From Candidatus Nomurabacteria bacterium (GTDB taxonomy: Bacteria; Patescibacteriota; Minisyncoccia; Phycocordibacterales; UBA2100), in NCBI GenBank assembly GCA_943356775.1, contig CALRFU010000009.1, positions 1-40,184 on the forward strand: a stretch of 40,184 nt of DNA, read 5' to 3'. The first letter of the stretch is position 1. The number at the start of each line of letters is the position of its first letter. The notes beneath the pieces were generated by a model. The model had not been told where the DNA came from, did no database searches, and was given only the letters and a program-made list of their open reading frames with translations. Shown here piece by piece: positions 5,933 through 39,963 of the stretch. The position numbers and the translations under genes are program-made.

Positions 5933-5954
5933 GTCGAAAGTATACACTGGCGAG

Positions 5955-6554: not shown

Positions 6555-6640
6555 GTTCGTTTCTCCTTCTTTTGACGAACCTGCGGAATATACTTCTCAA
6601 AATACGTTGTGGCAATAGTCTCGGCTGGTACACTGGGGGT

Positions 6641-7768: not shown

Positions 7769-7786
7769 CTCGGGTATACTACTCTC

Positions 7787-14639: not shown

Positions 14640-14660
14640 GGGCGCAATTCTACACCACGG

Positions 14661-18181: not shown

Positions 18182-18341
18182 GTATGCACTATACATCGCC
18201 TCTCGGGTTCAAGGCTGCAATCTGTGCATAACGAGGCGCTTTTTTGATTCGTCGTTACGAGTAAGCGAGGGGTTCGAACAGCGGAGTGATGCTTCCGATT
18301 TGTCCAAGCTGAGGCTTGGTTATAAATCGCGTCCTCTTGAG

Positions 18342-19361: not shown

Positions 19362-19444
19362 GCGGACAATTGTATCGTGCACACAGAGAAAATCGCATAC
19401 CTCATCGGCAAGTGCTGCGCAGGTACTATACTGTATTACTACAC

Positions 19445-23019: not shown

Positions 23020-23053
23020 AGATAATTCACGACGCTAGTGATACAATACAAGG

Positions 23054-23380: not shown

Positions 23381-23401
23381 TATACGTGATATAATTTTTA
23401 A

Positions 23402-24550
23402 ATGGCGTTCTCTTTGGGAAACGTTCTCAAAAGCTTTGCATCAATCGGTAAATCAGCCGATGGGAGCGTGTTGGGAATTGATATCGGCGCATCAAGCGCG
23501 AAGATTGTGCAACTGCGTACATCGCGTGGCGCCGCAATTCTCGAAACTTATGGCGAGATAGCTCTCGGCCCTTACGCGCAGCAGGCGATAGGGAAGGCGG
23601 TTAAGCTCACGCCGGAAAAGACAGCGGAAGCAATCACCGACCTTATGCGTGAGGCCAATGTGACAGCCCGTGCGGGCGGACTTTCAATTCCGTTTTCGTC
23701 AAGCCTCGTCAGTGTGATAAATCTGCCGCATATCCAGCCGGAGCAACTCAAGCGAATAATACCCATCGAGGCCCGGAAATACATTCCGATACCGGTCAGT
23801 GAAGTGACGCTTGATTGGTTCGTTATTCCGGGCGAAGAGGGAGAGGATAGCGCCTTCGACCGCCTCGAGACGAAGAAGTCTCCGCAGACGAAAGGAGATG
23901 AAATCCTGCTCGTTGCGATTCACAATGATGTACTCAAGAACTATCAGACGGTCGCTACTACCGCCGGGCTCAAGATTAATTTTTACGAGATAGAAATATT
24001 CAGTACTGTCCGTTCTGCGGTAGCTCACGGAATTGCGCCCGTCTTGGTTGTCGACCTCGGAGCCGCGACAACAAAGATATATATCATAGAGCGCGGAGTC
24101 GTTCGCTTGTCGCATCTCGTTTCGGCGGGAGGTCAGCATATGACGGAAAATCTTGCACGTTCGCTCGGGTGGGAATTCGAGAAGGCAGAGCGGGTAAAAC
24201 GCGAACGCGGCCTCATTGATTCGAATGCATACAGCCCGGATGAGAACGATAAGATAAAGGCCGCGCTGTTATCAACACTCTCGCGTGTGTTTTCGGAAGT
24301 GAATCGGGTACTATTGAGCTACGGGCAGCGGTACAACAAGAATGTATCGCGCGTGGTTCTCGCAGGCGGCGGGGCGTCGCTTCCGGGACTTGCGGACGTT
24401 GCGCATAGCAGTCTGTCTGCCGAAGTTGAGATTGCTAATCCTTTTTCGCACACTGAAGCACCGGCATTTCTTGAGGCTGTGCTGAAGGAAATTGGCCCGG
24501 GATTTGTGGTCGCGGTCGGAGTGGCGTTGAGAAAACTCAAAAGCAGTTAA
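23402..24550 (+). CDS. pilM: Type IV pilus assembly protein PilM
   Basis: VLGIDIGASSAKIVQL, RKYIPIPVSEVTLDW, VLVVDLGAATTKIYIIE, VVLAGGGASLPGL; TATAAT-N6-ATG. Confidence 0.93.
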   Translation: MAFSLGNVLKSFASIGKSADGSVLGIDIGASSAKIVQLRTSRGAAILETYGEIALGPYAQQAIGKAVKLTPEKTAEAITDLMREANVTARAGGLSIPFSSSLVSVINLPHIQPEQLKRIIPIEARKYIPIPVSEVTLDWFVIPGEEGEDSAFDRLETKKSPQTKGDEILLVAIHNDVLKNYQTVATTAGLKINFYEIEIFSTVRSAVAHGIAPVLVVDLGAATTKIYIIERGVVRLSHLVSAGGQHMTENLARSLGWEFEKAERVKRERGLIDSNAYSPDENDKIKAALLSTLSRVFSEVNRVLLSYGQRYNKNVSRVVLAGGGASLPGLADVAHSSLSAEVEIANPFSHTEAPAFLEAVLKEIGPGFVVAVGVALRKLKSS

Positions 24551-24553
24551 AGT

Positions 24554-25246
24554 ATGGTTGATACAGGCATAACCTCCTCGTTCATACCGCGTGACACGTC
24601 GGTCTCTCCGAATGCATCCCGGCGCGGAGGGGGGCTCAACGATTTACTCGTCTTGTGCTCAATCGTGCTCTTCGTCGCATCCGCTGCGCTTGCGGCCGGC
24701 GTCTTTTTGTACGGCCAATATCTTGCGACCGAGAACACCGCTAAACTCGCTCAGCTCGAACGTGCGCAAGCAGGATTCCAGCCCGCCCTCATACAACAGC
24801 TCACCCGCCTCGACGACCGTATGCATGCGGCCGAGCGTGTCCTCTCTGCGCACATCGCGCCATCACTCTTTTTCCAGGCCCTTGAACAAGCGACACTGCA
24901 AACGGTATCTTTCCAGTCTTTGGATTTTCAGGTCACCGATAATCAGAATCTGACGGTCAAACTGGTTGGGGTTGCGGAGAGTGTGAACTCAATCGCGCTT
25001 CAGGCCGATCTTTTCAGTAAGAACGGAGTCATAACGAGTCCCATCTTTTCTAATATTGCTCGGCAAATAGACGGAGTGCACTTTAATCTTTCTGCGGTCG
25101 TGAATCCTTCGGCTATAAACTATGCGGGGCGGAATGCTTCTGCGGCGGCAGTACAGGAAGTCGTCACTCCTCCGGCGGACGTCTCTCCATTCCAAAGTCT
25201 CCCGCAAGGTACGACATCGTCGTCAACTCAGCCCGCAAACCAATAA
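24554..25246 (+). CDS. PilN-like pilus assembly protein
   Basis: Position after pilM, single N-terminal TM, coiled coil. Confidence 0.6.
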   Translation: MVDTGITSSFIPRDTSVSPNASRRGGGLNDLLVLCSIVLFVASAALAAGVFLYGQYLATENTAKLAQLERAQAGFQPALIQQLTRLDDRMHAAERVLSAHIAPSLFFQALEQATLQTVSFQSLDFQVTDNQNLTVKLVGVAESVNSIALQADLFSKNGVITSPIFSNIARQIDGVHFNLSAVVNPSAINYAGRNASAAAVQEVVTPPADVSPFQSLPQGTTSSSTQPANQ

Positions 25247-25247
25247 T

Positions 25248-25880
25248 ATGAAACTCGTCATCGCAATCGTCGGAGTAGTGCTCGCAGGAGGCGTATTCTT
25301 CTGGTACACAAAGCCCACGTACGACAGTTCTCAGGCACTCCGCGCGGATATTGCGCAAAATGATGCGGCTCTCGACAAGGCGGCGGAATTGCAAAAGCTG
25401 CGGCAGACATTACTTTCGCGTTTCAATACGTTCAATACGGCGGATCTCGACCGTCTGCAGAAATTGCTGCCTGATCATGTAGACAACGTACGTCTCATTC
25501 TTGATTTGGATAAGCTTGCCGAGCGCCAAGGAATTGCCCTTCAAAATGTTGATGTTTCAAACGCACAAAAACAGACCGCCAAAAGTCAGACGGCGCTCGG
25601 CACTATCGGAGCCTCAAATCAAAAATACGATTCACTTACGCTGACATTCAGCACGGTCGCTACGTATGCTAGTTTCGTCGAATTCTTAGAGAACCTTGAA
25701 TCAAGCTTACGCATCGTAGATCTTGTCTCGCTCACCGTCGCTTCGGCCGGGGGTAGCGCGGCTGTCGTATCAAGTGCAACAAATGCGTTTCCGACTAATG
25801 CAACGAATTCCGGTACTCCCAGATCATCCGAGCCGTTTTATACTTACAACATGACTCTTCGAACGTATTGGCTCAAATAA
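25248..25880 (+). CDS. PilO-like pilus assembly protein
   Basis: MKLVIAIVGVVLAGGVFFWY TM, coiled coil, LQKLLPDHVDNVRLILDLDKLAERQGI. Confidence 0.7.
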   Translation: MKLVIAIVGVVLAGGVFFWYTKPTYDSSQALRADIAQNDAALDKAAELQKLRQTLLSRFNTFNTADLDRLQKLLPDHVDNVRLILDLDKLAERQGIALQNVDVSNAQKQTAKSQTALGTIGASNQKYDSLTLTFSTVATYASFVEFLENLESSLRIVDLVSLTVASAGGSAAVVSSATNAFPTNATNSGTPRSSEPFYTYNMTLRTYWLK

Positions 25881-25881
25881 T

Positions 25882-26223
25882 ATGCAAGCACTTCTTCAGC
25901 ACAAGCTTCTTCTCGCTTTCTCAGGCCTTATTGTTGCCGGTCTTGTTTGGTACGGTTTGTCATCGCCATCGGTAGTGCCCAACCTGAGCACGACACCGGA
26001 TATAGAGGGGAGCGCCAAGGCCGACCCGGGAATCGTTGCGACACTGCTCACGCTGCGCGCGGTCAAACTCGACGGCGCAATATTTTCGGGCACCGAATTC
26101 GGGCGATTGAAAGATTTCTCGACGGAAATAGTGTCCGAGCCTGTCGGTCGTACAAACCCTTTTGCGCCGCTTTATTCTCCAAACAGCAGCACTACCCAAA
26201 CTCCGGTACCCGCAAACCGCTAA
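25882..26223 (+). CDS. Small TM protein in the pilus locus, PilP-like by position
   Basis: N-terminal TM; C-terminal FSTEIVSEPVGRTNPFAPL. Confidence 0.5.
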   Translation: MQALLQHKLLLAFSGLIVAGLVWYGLSSPSVVPNLSTTPDIEGSAKADPGIVATLLTLRAVKLDGAIFSGTEFGRLKDFSTEIVSEPVGRTNPFAPLYSPNSSTTQTPVPANR

Positions 26224-26229
26224 CGTTAT

Positions 26230-27966
26230 ATGCCGGGAGAGGGAACCACATCGGCATCTGCGAGCACCGCCCAGCCGGTCGGTGATGTGCCAGTGCGCTC
26301 GATCGGTGACACAAAGGTAGCGTACGAAGTTCTCAAGTACATTCCCGAGGAATCCGCGTCTCATTACGGCTTGGTACCCCTGGGCGTCGTTGAAGGCGTT
26401 CTTGAGGTCGGTATGGTGGACCCCGATGACATGGAGGGTATTGACGCTCTGAATTTCATCGCACGCGCGACCGGGATGCCGTTCAAAATATTTAAGATAG
26501 TTCGTGAGGATTTCGACCGGGTGTTGGGCATGTACCGTGGGCTTGGAGGCGAAGTCGAACGCGCGGTATCCGATCTGGAGAAAGAGCGCGCGCCTGATAA
26601 GATGAAGTCCGCTGAGCATGAAACCTCCTCATTAGATATTGAAGACCCGTCAATCGGACGGGGCCCCGGAGAGGGAATGGCGAAAATCCGGGAAGATGCT
26701 CCGACTATCAAAATAGTCTCGACCATCCTGCGATACGCGGTGGACGGTAAAGCTTCCGACGTACACATTGAGCCGCAACCTTCCGGAGTGCGTGTGCGGT
26801 ACCGTGTCGACGGGGAGCTCCACACGAGCGTGATACTACCTCTCTCTACCCATCGTGCGCTTGTCGCCCGGGTGAAGGTTCTCGCCTCAATGAGGCTCGA
26901 CGAAATGCGTAAGCCGCAAGACGGCCGTTTTTCCGCATCAATTGATAAGCGTCAGATCGACTTCCGCGTTTCTACATTTCCTTCGTATAACGGCGAGAAG
27001 GTGGTCATCCGTATTCTCGATCGCGAGCAAGGATACATTCCTCTCGACCAGATCGGTCTTACGCCGCGCAATCTCGAGTTGATACGTAAAGCCGTGACCG
27101 CTTCGCACGGACTCGTCTTGATATCAGGTCCCACAGGCTCAGGAAAATCGACAACACTCTACTCGATGCTCAACGAGGTTGATCGTGAGCACAAAAACGT
27201 ACTTTCTCTCGAAGATCCTATCGAGTATTACGTCGAGGGAGTCATCCAATCGCAGATGCGTCCCGAGATAGGGTATACCTTCGCCAACGGGTTGCGCACT
27301 ACCTTGCGCCAAGATCCGGATGTCATCATGCTCGGCGAAATCCGTGACGGAGAAACCGCGAAGCTTGCCATCCAGGCGGCTCTTACGGGACACCTCGTTC
27401 TGTCTACAATCCATACCAATGACGCCGTCGGCACCATTCCGCGCCTTATCGACATGGGCGTCGACCCCTACCTCATTCCTCCGGTCCTTATTGTCTCAAT
27501 TGCTCAGCGTCTGGTGCGGACCTTTTGCCCGGATGCCGCAGGCGAGACTCCGCTGAGCGCATCGCAGCGCAAAAGCATCGAGAAACAGCTCGAATCCCTC
27601 CCGGAGAAGTACCGCTTCAAGGTTCCCGACATGGTGTATGAGCCGGTGCGCACCTCCACGTGCCCGACAGGCTTGCGCGGACGTATGGCGGTATTCGAGG
27701 TTTTGGAAATGTCTCCTGCGATTGAAAAGATTGTCCTCGATGACCCCGTAGACTCAAGAGTCTGGGCGGCCGCGCGAGCCGAAGGCATGCTCACGATGCA
27801 GGAGGATGCTATGATGAAAGCGTTTGATAAACACATCCCGTTTTCTGAGGTGAATAGTTTGAGCACGCTCTTACTTTCGGGGGATCAGGAGAAGGATGTG
27901 GTCACGCCGCCTTCAAGCCCCGAAGGCTCGCTCGAAGGGGCAGCACCTGAGACCTCATCCCTATGA
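26230..27966 (+). CDS. pilB: Type IV pilus assembly ATPase PilB (GspE/PulE family)
   Basis: GPTGSGKSTTLYSMLNEVD, LSLEDPIEYYVEGVIQSQ, ALRQDPD-type box TTLRQDPDVIMLGEIRDGETAKLAIQAALTGHLVLSTIHTNDA. Confidence 0.95.
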   Translation: MPGEGTTSASASTAQPVGDVPVRSIGDTKVAYEVLKYIPEESASHYGLVPLGVVEGVLEVGMVDPDDMEGIDALNFIARATGMPFKIFKIVREDFDRVLGMYRGLGGEVERAVSDLEKERAPDKMKSAEHETSSLDIEDPSIGRGPGEGMAKIREDAPTIKIVSTILRYAVDGKASDVHIEPQPSGVRVRYRVDGELHTSVILPLSTHRALVARVKVLASMRLDEMRKPQDGRFSASIDKRQIDFRVSTFPSYNGEKVVIRILDREQGYIPLDQIGLTPRNLELIRKAVTASHGLVLISGPTGSGKSTTLYSMLNEVDREHKNVLSLEDPIEYYVEGVIQSQMRPEIGYTFANGLRTTLRQDPDVIMLGEIRDGETAKLAIQAALTGHLVLSTIHTNDAVGTIPRLIDMGVDPYLIPPVLIVSIAQRLVRTFCPDAAGETPLSASQRKSIEKQLESLPEKYRFKVPDMVYEPVRTSTCPTGLRGRMAVFEVLEMSPAIEKIVLDDPVDSRVWAAARAEGMLTMQEDAMMKAFDKHIPFSEVNSLSTLLLSGDQEKDVVTPPSSPEGSLEGAAPETSSL

Positions 27967-28364
27967 CCGATACACCGACAAAAAAAGCTTCCATTCTTCT
28001 CCTTGACGACGACAATTTTCTTTTGGGTATGTACGGGATGAAGTTTTCTCAAAACGGGTATGCCGTCGAGTCATTTCTCTCGGCGAACCAAGCGTTGGGA
28101 GCCTTGCGTGGAGGACTCAATATTGACGTCATTCTCTTCGATATCATGATGCCCGAACTCGACGGATTCTCGTTCCTGAAAGCACTTTATGATGAGCGCC
28201 TTGGAGAAGGATCGCTCAAGATTGCACTCACGAATCAGAGCGACGAATCAGAAAAAGCAAAAGCAGCAGAATTAGGTGCCTCATGCTATATCATCAAGGC
28301 GAGCATGATTCCATCGGAAGTTGTCAACACGGTGAATGAAGAACTCGCAAAGCATCGAGCGTAG
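27963..28364 (+). CDS. CheY-like response regulator inside the pilus operon
   Basis: ILLLDDDNFLLGMYGMKF, ILFDIMMPELDGFSFL, IALTNQSD, CYIIKASM; 4-nt overlap with pilB. Confidence 0.92.
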   Translation: MTDTPTKKASILLLDDDNFLLGMYGMKFSQNGYAVESFLSANQALGALRGGLNIDVILFDIMMPELDGFSFLKALYDERLGEGSLKIALTNQSDESEKAKAAELGASCYIIKASMIPSEVVNTVNEELAKHRA

Positions 28365-28389
28365 AACTGGTATCATTTCTTTATACCGT

Positions 28390-29454
28390 ATGAACGATTA
28401 TCCAACTCTCTTGAAAAAATATTTCAACGTCCTTGTGCATGAGGGGGGTTCTGATTTGCACTTATCTACGGGGGCGCATCCGACCATTCGCGTCTCGGGG
28501 GAGCTCTCGCCGATGCTCAAAGAACCCGTCCTGACTCCCGAGGACACGCGTGGCCTCCTGCAGGCTCTGGTCTCTCCCGAACTCGAAGCCAAATTCAAAG
28601 AGCGCCAGGAATTGGATTTTGCGTACGAGAGTACAGAGAAGTATCGTTTCCGGGGAAACGCCTTCATACAACGCGGTGCGGTAGGTATCGTCCTCCGGCT
28701 CATCCCGAGGCAGATACAAAGTATCAAGGACCTGAATCTCCCCGATATACTCACTTCGTTCGCGCGAAAGGAGCAGGGATTTTTCCTGGTTGTCGGTCCT
28801 GTGGGGCAGGGGAAAACGACGACTCTCGCGTCTCTCATTGAGCTCATCAACAGCGAGCGGATGGAGCACATCATAACGATTGAGGATCCTATCGAGTACA
28901 TATTCGAACCAAAACAATCGCTCATTGACCAGCGCGAGGTCGGCATTGATACAAAAGATTTCGCTTCAGCGCTTCTCTCGGCCTTTCGCGAGGATGTCGA
29001 TGTTATTTTGGTGGGTGAGATGCGGGGCCCTGAGACCATGGCGGCGGCGGTCACTGCTGCGGAGACCGGGCACCTCGTTCTCTCGACTCTGCATACCAAC
29101 AATGCGGCGCAGACCATTGACCGTATTATTGATACCTTTCCGCCGGGTCAGCAGGACCAGATACGTTTGCAGCTCGCGGCAAGCCTCGCTGGTATTTTCT
29201 CTCAACGGCTCATTCCGCGCATCTCCGGCGGTCGCATCCCATGTTATGAGCTTCTCATCAATAATAAAGCGGTCGCGAATCTCATACGCGAGAAACGTTC
29301 TCACGAAATAAACACCGTGATAGAGACCGGATCGACCGAAGGGATGATAGATATGAATCGTTGCCTCGCCGAGCTTGTAGCACGAGGAGAGATTACTCCT
29401 GAGAGCGCCTACCAACACTCCCTCAATCCAAACGTCCTCCAGAAACTTCTCTAA
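28390..29454 (+). CDS. pilT: Twitching motility ATPase PilT
   Basis: GGSDLHLSTGAHPTIRVSGEL, GPVGQGKTTTLASLIELIN, TIEDPIEYIFEPKQSLIDQREVG, LVGEMRGPETMAAAVTAAETGHLVLSTLHTNNAAQTIDRIIDTFP. Confidence 0.96.
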   Translation: MNDYPTLLKKYFNVLVHEGGSDLHLSTGAHPTIRVSGELSPMLKEPVLTPEDTRGLLQALVSPELEAKFKERQELDFAYESTEKYRFRGNAFIQRGAVGIVLRLIPRQIQSIKDLNLPDILTSFARKEQGFFLVVGPVGQGKTTTLASLIELINSERMEHIITIEDPIEYIFEPKQSLIDQREVGIDTKDFASALLSAFREDVDVILVGEMRGPETMAAAVTAAETGHLVLSTLHTNNAAQTIDRIIDTFPPGQQDQIRLQLAASLAGIFSQRLIPRISGGRIPCYELLINNKAVANLIREKRSHEINTVIETGSTEGMIDMNRCLAELVARGEITPESAYQHSLNPNVLQKLL

Positions 29455-29457
29455 GGT

Positions 29458-30666
29458 ATGGCTATCTTTACCTACACTGCCCTCGATGCGGAAGGCAATG
29501 AGCGGCAAGGCAGCATTGACGCCGTCAATATGGACATCGCGATTGCGGCATTGCAGCGACGGGGTCTTGTAATATCCGGTATTGACCCCGCAGAAGGATC
29601 ATCTCTTTTCTCAAAACGCATCTCATTCTTCGACCGCGTGACGAATGCGGATGTTGTGATGCTCTCCCGCCAGATAACGACGCTCTTCGAGGCGCAGGTA
29701 TCGGCTCTCCGCGCGTTCCGGCTCCTTGCGGCGGAGGCACGAACGCCGGCTTTGGGAGAGAAGCTGACCGCCATCGGCAATGACCTCCAGAGTGGAAGCA
29801 GTATCTCGGCGGCTCTTGCGCGCCATCCGGAAGTCTTCTCATCTTTTTATGTGAACATGGTTCGTGCGGGCGAAGAATCGGGAAAACTCGATGAGACATT
29901 CGCATTTCTCGCCGAGTACTTGGACAGAAATTTTGAACTTACCCAGAAGGCGCGCAACGCCCTGGTCTATCCGGCGTTCATCATGCTTACGTTCGTGGTG
30001 GTCATGGTTCTTATGATGACGCTCGTTATCCCACAACTCTCGGGAATGCTTGCGGAAGTCGGGCAGGACATACCGCTCTACACAAAGATTGTCATAGGGA
30101 TGTCGGAATTTCTTACGCGCTATATTTTTCTTTTCCTCATACTGATTGTGGCGGGCGGTATATTTCTCTACCGATTCTCGGGCACTGCGCGCGGAAGGGA
30201 GTTATTATCCCGGGCGCGCCTCGAGATACCGGCCGTAGGCAATATTTATCGCAAGATATTTCTTTCGCGCATCGCGGACAACCTCTCAACGATGCTTCGC
30301 AGCGGTATTCAGGTGTTGCGCGGCCTTGAAATCACGGGACTCGTGGTGGGGGATGCCGTCTATGAGAAGGTGCTTGCCGACGCCGCCGTCGACGTCAAAG
30401 GCGGTATGCCTCTTTCCGAGGCCCTCCGTAAACATCCGGAAATCCCCGGTATCGTCGTGGCTATGATTAAGATTGGAGAAGAAACAGGAAATATGGGGAA
30501 AATACTCGAGACTATGGCGCGATTCTACCGGCGTGAAGTGAATAATGCCGTGGACACCCTCGTCGGGCTCATAGAACCTCTCATGATAGTAGTTTTGGCC
30601 CTTGGTGTGGCGATACTTCTCGCGTCGGTCCTCTTGCCTATCTACAATATTGCGTCGTCATTCTAG
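29458..30666 (+). CDS. pilC: Type IV pilus inner-membrane platform protein PilC (T2SSF)
   Basis: MAIFTYTALDAEGNERQGSIDA, LSRQITTLFEAQVSALRAFRLLA, MVRAGEESGKLDETFAFLAEYLDR, IGEETGNMGKILETMARFYRREVNNAVDTLVGLIEPLMIVVL. Confidence 0.96.
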   Translation: MAIFTYTALDAEGNERQGSIDAVNMDIAIAALQRRGLVISGIDPAEGSSLFSKRISFFDRVTNADVVMLSRQITTLFEAQVSALRAFRLLAAEARTPALGEKLTAIGNDLQSGSSISAALARHPEVFSSFYVNMVRAGEESGKLDETFAFLAEYLDRNFELTQKARNALVYPAFIMLTFVVVMVLMMTLVIPQLSGMLAEVGQDIPLYTKIVIGMSEFLTRYIFLFLILIVAGGIFLYRFSGTARGRELLSRARLEIPAVGNIYRKIFLSRIADNLSTMLRSGIQVLRGLEITGLVVGDAVYEKVLADAAVDVKGGMPLSEALRKHPEIPGIVVAMIKIGEETGNMGKILETMARFYRREVNNAVDTLVGLIEPLMIVVLALGVAILLASVLLPIYNIASSF

Positions 30667-31550: not shown

Positions 31551-31566
31551 ACGTTATACTTCGACA

Positions 31567-34727: not shown

Positions 34728-37045
<2,318 letters not shown>

Positions 37046-37046
37046 C

Positions 37047-38450
37047 ATGGACCTTTCTACACTTACGATAACAGAGGCTCGCCGCGCATTGGACGCCAAG
37101 GAGTATTCCGCGCTCGACCTCACCAACGCATATCTCGATGCGATAGAAAAAAAGAATGGAGAGATACACGCATACCTCGAAGTGTGGGCAGATTCTGCGA
37201 GAGAGGAGGCAAAAGCCGCCGATGCGGTGATTGCGGCAGGTAAGTCACAACCCCTCACGGGAATCCCGATTGCAGTCAAAGACAATATTCTCATCGAAGG
37301 GCGTATCGCGAGTGCGGCGTCGAAAATCTTGGAAAACTACAAAGCTTCATACGATGCGACGGTGATTTCAAAACTTAAGGCACAGGGTGTGGTATTTCTC
37401 GGACGCACAAATATGGATGAATTCGCACTCGGCAGTTCGACCGAGAATTCAGCATACGGGCCGACCAAAAATCCTCACGATACGTCACGCGTACCGGGCG
37501 GCACTTCCGGCGGCTCGGCTGCTGCTGTTGCGGCCGGGATGGCGCTTGCAGCTCTCGGTAGTGATACGGGCGGCTCTATACGCCAGCCCGCAGCCTTCTG
37601 TGGTATCGCAGGATTGAAGCCGACGTATGGCGCCGTTTCCCGTTCGGGCCTCATCGCCGCTGCGTCATCTCTCGACCAGATAGGTACGCTTGGGAAGAAT
37701 GTGGAGGATGCAAAAATTCTTTTCGACGCTGTTCGTGGACATGATGCGATGGACAGCACATCGCTGCCCGATGCCAACATTCCGCCAAAGGCAGGGCGGA
37801 AGGCGATAGGGGTGCCGCGTGAATTTTTGACGGACCTCACTCCCGAAATACGCGCGCAATTTGAAAGTACATTGGACACATTAAAAAACAAGGGATACAC
37901 AATCGTCGATGTTGCACTTCCGTCTTTGCAATACGCGCTGGCGGTGTACTACATCATCAACCCTGCAGAAGTTTCTACGAATCTTGCACGACTCGACGGA
38001 ATTCGTTACGGCCTCTCCGTCCCTGCGGATGTCATAGGAGAAGTGTACTCAAAGACGCGAGCGGCGGGATTCGGCCCCGAAACACGTCGTAGAGTTCTGG
38101 TGGGCACATTCGTCCTTTCCTCGGGGTATGCCGATGCGTACTACCGCAAGGCACGTTCGGTCCGCGAGCTGATACGTGCAGATTTTGCAAAAGCATTCGA
38201 AACGGTTGACGCTATTGTCATGCCGACGACTCCTTCACCTGCATTCAAGCTTGGCGAGAAGAACAGCGACCCTGTATCGCTTTATTTGGAAGATATTTTC
38301 ACGGTGCCCGTGAATCTCGCAGGCGTACCGGCGATATCAGTGCCGGGAGGCACTGTAGAGAGGGATGGGAAAAAGTTGCCGGTAGGTTTCCAGATAATCG
38401 GCGCATGGGGCGGAGAGCAGACAATCTTTGCCATTGGCAAAGATGTCTGA
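37047..38450 (+). CDS. gatA: Asp-tRNA(Asn)/Glu-tRNA(Gln) amidotransferase subunit GatA
   Basis: GIPIAVKDNI, GSSTENSAYGPTKNPHDTSRVPGGTSGGSAAAVAAGMALAALGSDTGGSIRQPAAFCG. Confidence 0.97.
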   Translation: MDLSTLTITEARRALDAKEYSALDLTNAYLDAIEKKNGEIHAYLEVWADSAREEAKAADAVIAAGKSQPLTGIPIAVKDNILIEGRIASAASKILENYKASYDATVISKLKAQGVVFLGRTNMDEFALGSSTENSAYGPTKNPHDTSRVPGGTSGGSAAAVAAGMALAALGSDTGGSIRQPAAFCGIAGLKPTYGAVSRSGLIAAASSLDQIGTLGKNVEDAKILFDAVRGHDAMDSTSLPDANIPPKAGRKAIGVPREFLTDLTPEIRAQFESTLDTLKNKGYTIVDVALPSLQYALAVYYIINPAEVSTNLARLDGIRYGLSVPADVIGEVYSKTRAAGFGPETRRRVLVGTFVLSSGYADAYYRKARSVRELIRADFAKAFETVDAIVMPTTPSPAFKLGEKNSDPVSLYLEDIFTVPVNLAGVPAISVPGGTVERDGKKLPVGFQIIGAWGGEQTIFAIGKDV

Positions 38451-38479
38451 CCCCGCTAGCGGTGAGTTATAATCTCCAC

Positions 38480-39193
38480 ATGGATCCAAATCCTTCACCG
38501 GGCAACTCAATAGGTTCGGCGTTGTGGTTTCTCAGCGAAGTCGCATTCAAATGGATACCGGGCGCGGTGATGGCCGTCTCGGGTACTGCCGCGCCGGTAC
38601 CGGGAGGAGAGCCTGTGTCTCCGCTCGCCGCTCCGATTACGACGCCCGTATCCGCTCCTGAAGTCGTCCAGTATCTACAGTTGGCCTCAGCGCCCGGAGA
38701 GTACGACCAGATGTTTCAGCAATGGAGTACGTTTGTAGCCTTCTCACTCCTCGTTACCCTGTGCCTGGGTGCCCTCATTATTTACTGCGCGATTCGTGTC
38801 TTCCAGATACGTCAGATAGAGCGGCGCAGGTTCTATCAGACCCGACGTACGGTCGCCGCCCAGGATATTCCGAAATCACAATTGCGTTGGAATAGGATAC
38901 GGGAAGAGGCAAATTCCGATTCTGAACAATCCTGGCGGCTCGCTATCCTCGAAGCGGACATCATGCTCAACGAGCTCCTCGATGTCATGGGTTACAAAGG
39001 CGAGACGATGGCGGATAAGATGCGCGGTGTGGACCGCGCAAATTTCAATTCTATCGATCTCGCATGGGAGGCGCACAAGATTCGCAACAAAATCGCACAT
39101 GACGGCAGCGCACACCAGATGACGGCGCGCGAAACCCGTCGCGTCATCGCACTCTACGAAAAAGTCTTAAAAGACGCACGTTACATTGAGTAA
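38480..39193 (+). CDS. Hypothetical membrane protein with a conserved-looking cytoplasmic domain
   Basis: TM segment FVAFSLLVTLCLGALIIYCAIRVF; C-terminal WRLAILEADIMLNELLDVMGYKGETMADKMRG...AHKIRNKIAHDG; TATAAT-N6-ATG. Confidence 0.75.
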   Translation: MDPNPSPGNSIGSALWFLSEVAFKWIPGAVMAVSGTAAPVPGGEPVSPLAAPITTPVSAPEVVQYLQLASAPGEYDQMFQQWSTFVAFSLLVTLCLGALIIYCAIRVFQIRQIERRRFYQTRRTVAAQDIPKSQLRWNRIREEANSDSEQSWRLAILEADIMLNELLDVMGYKGETMADKMRGVDRANFNSIDLAWEAHKIRNKIAHDGSAHQMTARETRRVIALYEKVLKDARYIE

Positions 39194-39245: not shown

Positions 39246-39320
39246 AGCGGGGTGGAGCAGTAGTAGCTCGCAAGGCTCATAACCTTGAGGTCGCGGGTGC
39301 AATTCCCGCCCCCGCAACCA
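39246..39320 (+). tRNA. Initiator tRNA-fMet (CAU), with CCA encoded
   Basis: AGCGGGG..CCCCGCA with unpaired position 1:72, anticodon arm CAAGG-CTCATAA-CCTTG, ACCA end. Confidence 0.9.
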
Positions 39321-39906: not shown

Positions 39907-39963
39907 ATCAGTAGGTATAGCATGAAAGGGAAATATGCGATATTCTCATTTTGATCCTCATTT

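Follow-up and report, generated by a model that had tools for sequence, protein, structure and literature searches.

Results

Promoter boxes and start codons in the window

The 40,184-nucleotide (nt) stretch of contig CALRFU010000009.1 analysed here (the window throughout) carries a type IV pilus operon, and pilM, the first gene of that operon (PilM by Pfam), is preceded on the + strand by an extended -10 element that leads straight to the start codon, TGA-TATAAT-N6-ATG (23390-23404, with the box at 23390-23395 and the ATG at 23402). A sequence-only reading of the window had described such hexamers, placed 6 or 7 nt before start codons, as a window-wide layout implying leaderless mRNAs. The box-to-ATG layout is real and lies far beyond chance, and the leaderless reading is supported by an ATG-specific peak, by the extended -10 character of the boxes, by their concentration in first and isolated genes and by the loss of a U preference at position -1 when the spacer is exactly 6 nt, all of which suggest, at the level of sequence, transcription starting at the AUG. 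The genome, of which the window forms contig 9, measures 811 kb in 14 contigs and is 98% complete; its FtsH finds its best matches, at 77-78% identity, in Candidatus Kaiserbacteria and other Paceibacterota, and the organism was therefore assigned to the Candidate Phyla Radiation.

When the sequence was read back, the nine boxes that had been reported with coordinates and that of the 7787 gene proved to be the hexamers described, each 6 nt from an ATG. Besides that of pilM, they stand on the + strand before malic enzyme (TACACT with TGn, 6629-6634; ATG 6641), a 78-amino-acid gene (TATACT, 7775-7780; ATG 7787), pterin dehydratase (TACAAT, extended by TGA, 23042-23047; ATG 23054), pilD (TATACT, 31555-31560; ATG 31567), ligA (TATGAT, 34728-34733; ATG 34740) and the 38480 gene (TATAAT, 38468-38473; ATG 38480), and on the - strand before smpB (TATAGT, 2779-2784; ATG 2772), an amidohydrolase-like gene (TATACT, 5939-5944; ATG 5932) and ABC_sub_bind (TATAGT, 18188-18193; ATG 18181). 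The three cases with 7 nt, all on the - strand, are likewise present: recG (TAGAAT, 14647-14652; ATG 14639), 'comF' (TACAAT, 19369-19374; ATG 19361) and TATACC (39914-39919; ATG 39906), the weakest item, which lacks the near-invariant final T. One box had been missed, a TATGAT (36743-36748, +) 6 nt before ATG 36755 of a small gatC-like gene that lies between the ligA and amidase genes; the box is sited inside the end of ligA and may be a chance occurrence.

The description as window-wide is right for all the listed boxes but not for the inside of the pil operon, where most genes lack a box: at the starts of the downstream genes (24554-30666, +; gaps of -4 to 25 nt) the strict -10 box is absent, and the layout is concentrated in operon-first genes. 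Among the gene names, Pfam bears out SmpB, RecG, malic enzyme, ABC_sub_bind, pterin dehydratase, PilM, prepilin peptidase (pilD) and LigA; for 'pyrC', applied to the amidohydrolase-like gene, the sole match, to amidohydrolase, stays below threshold, and for 'comF' there is no Pfam match at all, so that both names are unconfirmed. The start-site corrections that had been proposed hold for malic enzyme, where the box-linked ATG 6641 replaces the mechanical start TTG 6536, and for the 38480 gene, where ATG 38480 replaces 38405; the mechanical smpB open reading frame starts at GTG 2787 (-). A large serine recombinase ends next to the transfer-messenger RNA (tmRNA) gene, which itself adjoins smpB (296-1987 and 1889-2281), and integration at the tmRNA gene is possible.

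A positional peak specific to ATG

The layout was followed through 440 kb of sequence, made up of the window and another 20 stretches that cover 400 kb, roughly half of the genome. Both strands were scanned for TATAAT-like boxes, defined as TAnnnT with at least 5/6 matches, and the triplets at every distance from them were counted without gene calling. ATG occurs 82 times at spacer 6 against 20.7 expected (p~2e-24), with shoulders of 40 at spacer 7 and 38 at spacer 8 and near-expected counts at the remaining spacers. GTG (19 against 19.2) and TTG (14 against 23.2) are not enriched at spacer 6. The window alone has 11 ATGs at spacer 6, where 2.06 are expected (Poisson p~1e-5). With called genes anchored instead at their 5'-most ATG, chosen mechanically, 43 boxes were found at spacer 6, 10 at 7 and 13 at 8, over a baseline of 1.0 +/- 0.9 per position. 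The genome-wide -10 peak at -12/-13 that the sequence-only reading had predicted from start-anchored motif searches is thus found, and it is specific to ATG.

The share of genes with such a box was estimated by a constrained mixture model with control positions, used in place of a free expectation-maximization fit over spacers 0-29, which soaked up stop codons and A/T words and gave an inflated fraction (0.72). Of 254 first genes 41% are assigned a box, as are 14% of the 109 operon-internal genes; control positions give about 2% at most, and over all genes the share is roughly a third. Similarly, a strict box at 6-8 nt precedes 30% of divergent genes but only 6% of genes lying within 25 nt of a same-strand upstream gene.

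The boxes have the character of promoters. T at -12, A at -11 and T at -7 are near-invariant, and TG at -15/-14 (the TGn motif) stands before 23 of 53 boxes, compared with 3.9% of other boxes, whereas -35 matches are unenriched upstream (0.15 vs 0.11). With TGn present and the -35 weak or absent, the box would be an extended -10 promoter element of sigma-70 type. Transcription from sigma-70 promoters usually starts six nucleotides past the -10 box, and at spacer 6 the start would therefore fall on the A of the ATG.

Position -1 and the transcription start

Operon-internal genes carry U at position -1 at a frequency of 0.69, compared with an upstream background of 0.26. Among genes whose box stands exactly 6 nt away this frequency is 0.14 (p=9e-10), which argues, independently of the box peak, that position -1 is not transcribed in these genes. 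When the box is 8 nt away, U is again common at -1 (0.62) and A is found at -2 (0.46), as would fit a 2-nt leader starting at A. The pattern as a whole fits a transcription start fixed six bases past the box. An initiator-type tRNA-Met (CAU) is encoded in the window (39246-39320, +); its anticodon loop, CUCAUAA, has A at position 37, which could pair with the -1 U of the mRNA. Three G-C pairs in the anticodon stem are usual for initiator tRNAs; in this stem (CAAGG/CCUUG) one of the three is replaced by A-U.

In loci of the Uhr-, Magasanik- and Falkowbacteria type (L054, L057, L063, L067, L068, L075, L081 and L094) the frequency of U at -1 rises to 0.76, and to 0.87 within operons, there is little Shine-Dalgarno (SD) signal and the leaderless peak is absent. 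This suggests that in these loci the start context visible in sequence is mainly the -1 U.

Absence of SD motifs and of the anti-SD

The SD/anti-SD pairing is commonly treated as the default start signal of bacteria. Beyond what the sequence-only reading had noticed, the genome shows neither half of it. SD words occur before starts at control level (0.08 vs 0.09), and enrichment is absent in every gene class, operon-internal genes included; the same method gave 0.39 vs 0.05 in Chloroflexota, used as the positive control. In the organism's own 16S gene, GGAAUCAUUCAAAAA follows an intact helix 45 where GGAUCACCUCCUU is expected, the true 3' end reads AACAAGGCACGGCTAGCGGAAGCTGGTCGTGGAATCATTCAAAAA, and GGATCACCTCCTT is missing although helix 45 is retained, with 8/8 positions paired and covariation across 29 sequences. 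The mature tail is predicted to be ...UGGAAUCAUUCAA, without CCUCC. The same tail is found in the separately assembled genome of the same genus, G305, and CCUCC is absent within 60 nt of helix 45 in the organism's own genome and in 26 readable relatives of its order. The missing SD signal before genes is explained by a 16S rRNA that has no anti-SD. The leaderless initiation proposed here would accordingly sit in a lineage without SD-guided initiation, as the 16S ends and upstream regions support.

The true 3' end lies past an intron-like insertion of ~640 nt just before helix 45 (G000 contig 3, about 37,935-38,560; L115, L102), inside which the Rfam 16S match wrongly ends. Two order relatives (L128, L141) also have 16S insertions near this site. 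The 16S of the order carries AAGGCA where the AAGGTA pattern was expected. One order member, G233, has an anti-SD-bearing 16S end at a contig edge beside an anti-SD-less copy in the same genome; the former looks like contamination. Among 4-mers complementary to the organism's own 16S tail, only GATT (weakly TGAA) is raised before starts; because the neighbouring 4-mers did not rise, no replacement pairing is claimed. The genome also retains a 385-residue protein that carries several S1 domains and is most likely bS1.

Distribution in the class and phylum

Among 136 genomes of the class with a readable 16S tail, the anti-SD is lost in 74, reduced in 19 and intact in 43. The enrichment of TATAMT-N6-ATG over a reversed control is 3.07, 3.05 and 1.60 in these groups, respectively (genomes, p=2e-7; families, which are not fully independent, p=0.002, or 0.012 without the organism's own order). 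The leaderless layout thus appears strongest where the anti-SD is gone. In the wider phylum the box-ATG layout is common but uneven; named genomes were reached there via loci, in which the 16S end is rarely readable. Outside the class, two genomes of family f56 (G094, G291) have 16S tails with an altered anti-SD, GGAAUACCGCC.

Discussion

With the layout, its spacing and ATG specificity, the absence of SD and anti-SD, and the -1 U pattern established, we regard extended -10 boxes producing leaderless mRNAs, in an organism without an SD system, as very probably the best overall explanation. The housekeeping sigma factor would recognize TGn-TATAAT boxes with little use of a -35 element, and transcription would start about 6 nt past the box. 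At spacer 6 the first base would then be the A of the AUG, giving a leaderless mRNA, and spacers 7 and 8 would give leaders of 1-2 nt. Ribosomes may recognize the 5'-terminal AUG together with the initiator tRNA, by 70S or initiator-tRNA-led initiation. In closely packed operon-internal genes the -1 U may help through a fourth pair with A37, through reinitiation after the upstream gene, or both.

The 129 TATAAT-like words on the two strands of the window, and the fact that the starts in the sequence-only reading were chosen by eye, might suggest that the hexamers arose as A/T-rich words by chance or through the choice of start codons. Yet the peak survives when no genes are called, is limited to spacers 6-8 and to ATG, and is flat in the controls; this explanation is refuted and its probability is negligible. 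An A/T-rich word could instead be a translational signal in leadered mRNAs, an S1-binding or unstructured A/U element and not a promoter. The retained bS1-like protein would suit such a role, and a survey of initiation signals discusses, for bacteria in which few genes have an SD, A/U-rich stretches before starts that might serve as S1 sites (PMC5397173). However, the motif has the invariant positions and upstream TGn of a -10 element, keeps one exact spacing and seldom occurs inside operons, although genes there would need a translational signal just as much, and the -1 U preference is lost along with it; a translational signal is accordingly very unlikely.

The boxes could also be true -10 elements with scattered starts, so that most mRNAs would carry short leaders of 1-10 nt. 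The secondary peaks at spacers 7 and 8 and the -1 U and -2 A of the box-8 genes point that way, but the dominance of spacer 6 together with the depletion of U at -1 suggests that in the main class +1 is the A, which leaves scattered starts very improbable, if by a shade less so than a translational signal. As to the 16S, an assembly or annotation artefact is conceivable in a gene with a large insertion near its 3' end in which the Rfam match stops, since the insertion might separate off the true end. Helix 45 and the tail were nevertheless located past the insertion, helix 45 covaries, and G305 and the 26 order relatives, assembled separately, have similar tails with no CCUCC in 60 nt; we give an artefact hardly any weight.

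Several observations weigh against the proposal of extended -10 boxes and leaderless mRNAs. The transcription start sites are themselves deduced from sequence, and the gene starts depend on an in-house caller. No box stands at 5-9 nt in about 60% of first genes, whose leaders may be ordinary, whose promoters may be of another kind or whose starts may be wrongly called. The argument from box-8 genes draws on 13 genes, or 19 when relatives are included. Orthologs in G305 speak for the proposal, though modestly: across 86 pairs, whose upstream DNA identity is near background, a box at 5-9 nt is kept in 7 of 18 boxed genes and occurs in 10 of 68 others (p=0.04). In the wider phylum, family f28 (for example G157, G205, G293 and G301) shows the TATAMT-N6-ATG layout strongly, up to 129 vs 12, and its 16S tails keep ACCUCC, with CCUCC intact. 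Finally, some class relatives with an intact anti-SD are also without SD signal, so that the loss of SD use would be older than the loss of the anti-SD and not its result; we infer that SD use was lost first and that erosion of the anti-SD came next.

Leaderless expression from a -10 element is in itself an established mode, known from Deinococcus-Thermus and the actinobacteria. In mycobacteria and Streptomyces both SD and anti-SD are kept, and leaderless genes can also begin with GTG. In these distant bacteria, with which the present organism would share an abundance of leaderless genes, 20-25% of genes depend on leaderless mRNAs (PMC9031893). The closest likeness is to Deinococcus-Thermus, in which a TAnnnT box 6-7 nt before the open reading frame marks about a third of genes as leaderless, the -10 layout corrects annotated starts and a GGAG ribosome-binding motif serves other genes (Zhong et al. 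2025, PMC12340547). The box spacing, the share of about a third and the start corrections are as in that group, whose D. deserti has leaderless mRNAs; unlike in Deinococcus, SD and anti-SD are both absent here, the box is often an extended -10, GTG has no peak at spacer 6, and no gene class is enriched for a GGAG-type motif.

Initiation without SD pairing also has parallels. Bacteroidetes do not use the SD interaction. Mammalian mitochondria lack the anti-SD, and loss of Era has been published for most of the phyla concerned here (PMC10582724). What differs from mitochondria and Bacteroidetes is that a bacterial order has lost the anti-SD from its chromosomal 16S gene while helix 45 was kept. 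In passages of their survey Nakagawa et al. 2017 attribute to leaderless mRNA a Pribnow-like bias that several phyla show at -20 to -10 (PMC5397173); those passages name neither a phylum of the Candidate Phyla Radiation nor anti-SD loss. A description of the leaderless layout in this lineage in combination with the order-wide loss of the anti-SD did not turn up among the open-access papers that were searched, and priority is uncertain.

We lean, with some reserve, towards a broader picture in which the whole order lacks the SD system and marks its starts by promoters placed at the AUG and, within operons, by a -1 U in four-base contact with the initiator tRNA, erosion of the anti-SD in many families of the class having left a range of natural intermediates. 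Many gene finders lean on the SD motif, and start codons in the Candidate Phyla Radiation are probably often mis-annotated by SD-based models. An order without either half of the SD pairing, with about a third of its genes apparently leaderless and a -1 U elsewhere, would offer a natural test of which start signals are sufficient, in a class that includes relatives at every stage of anti-SD loss.
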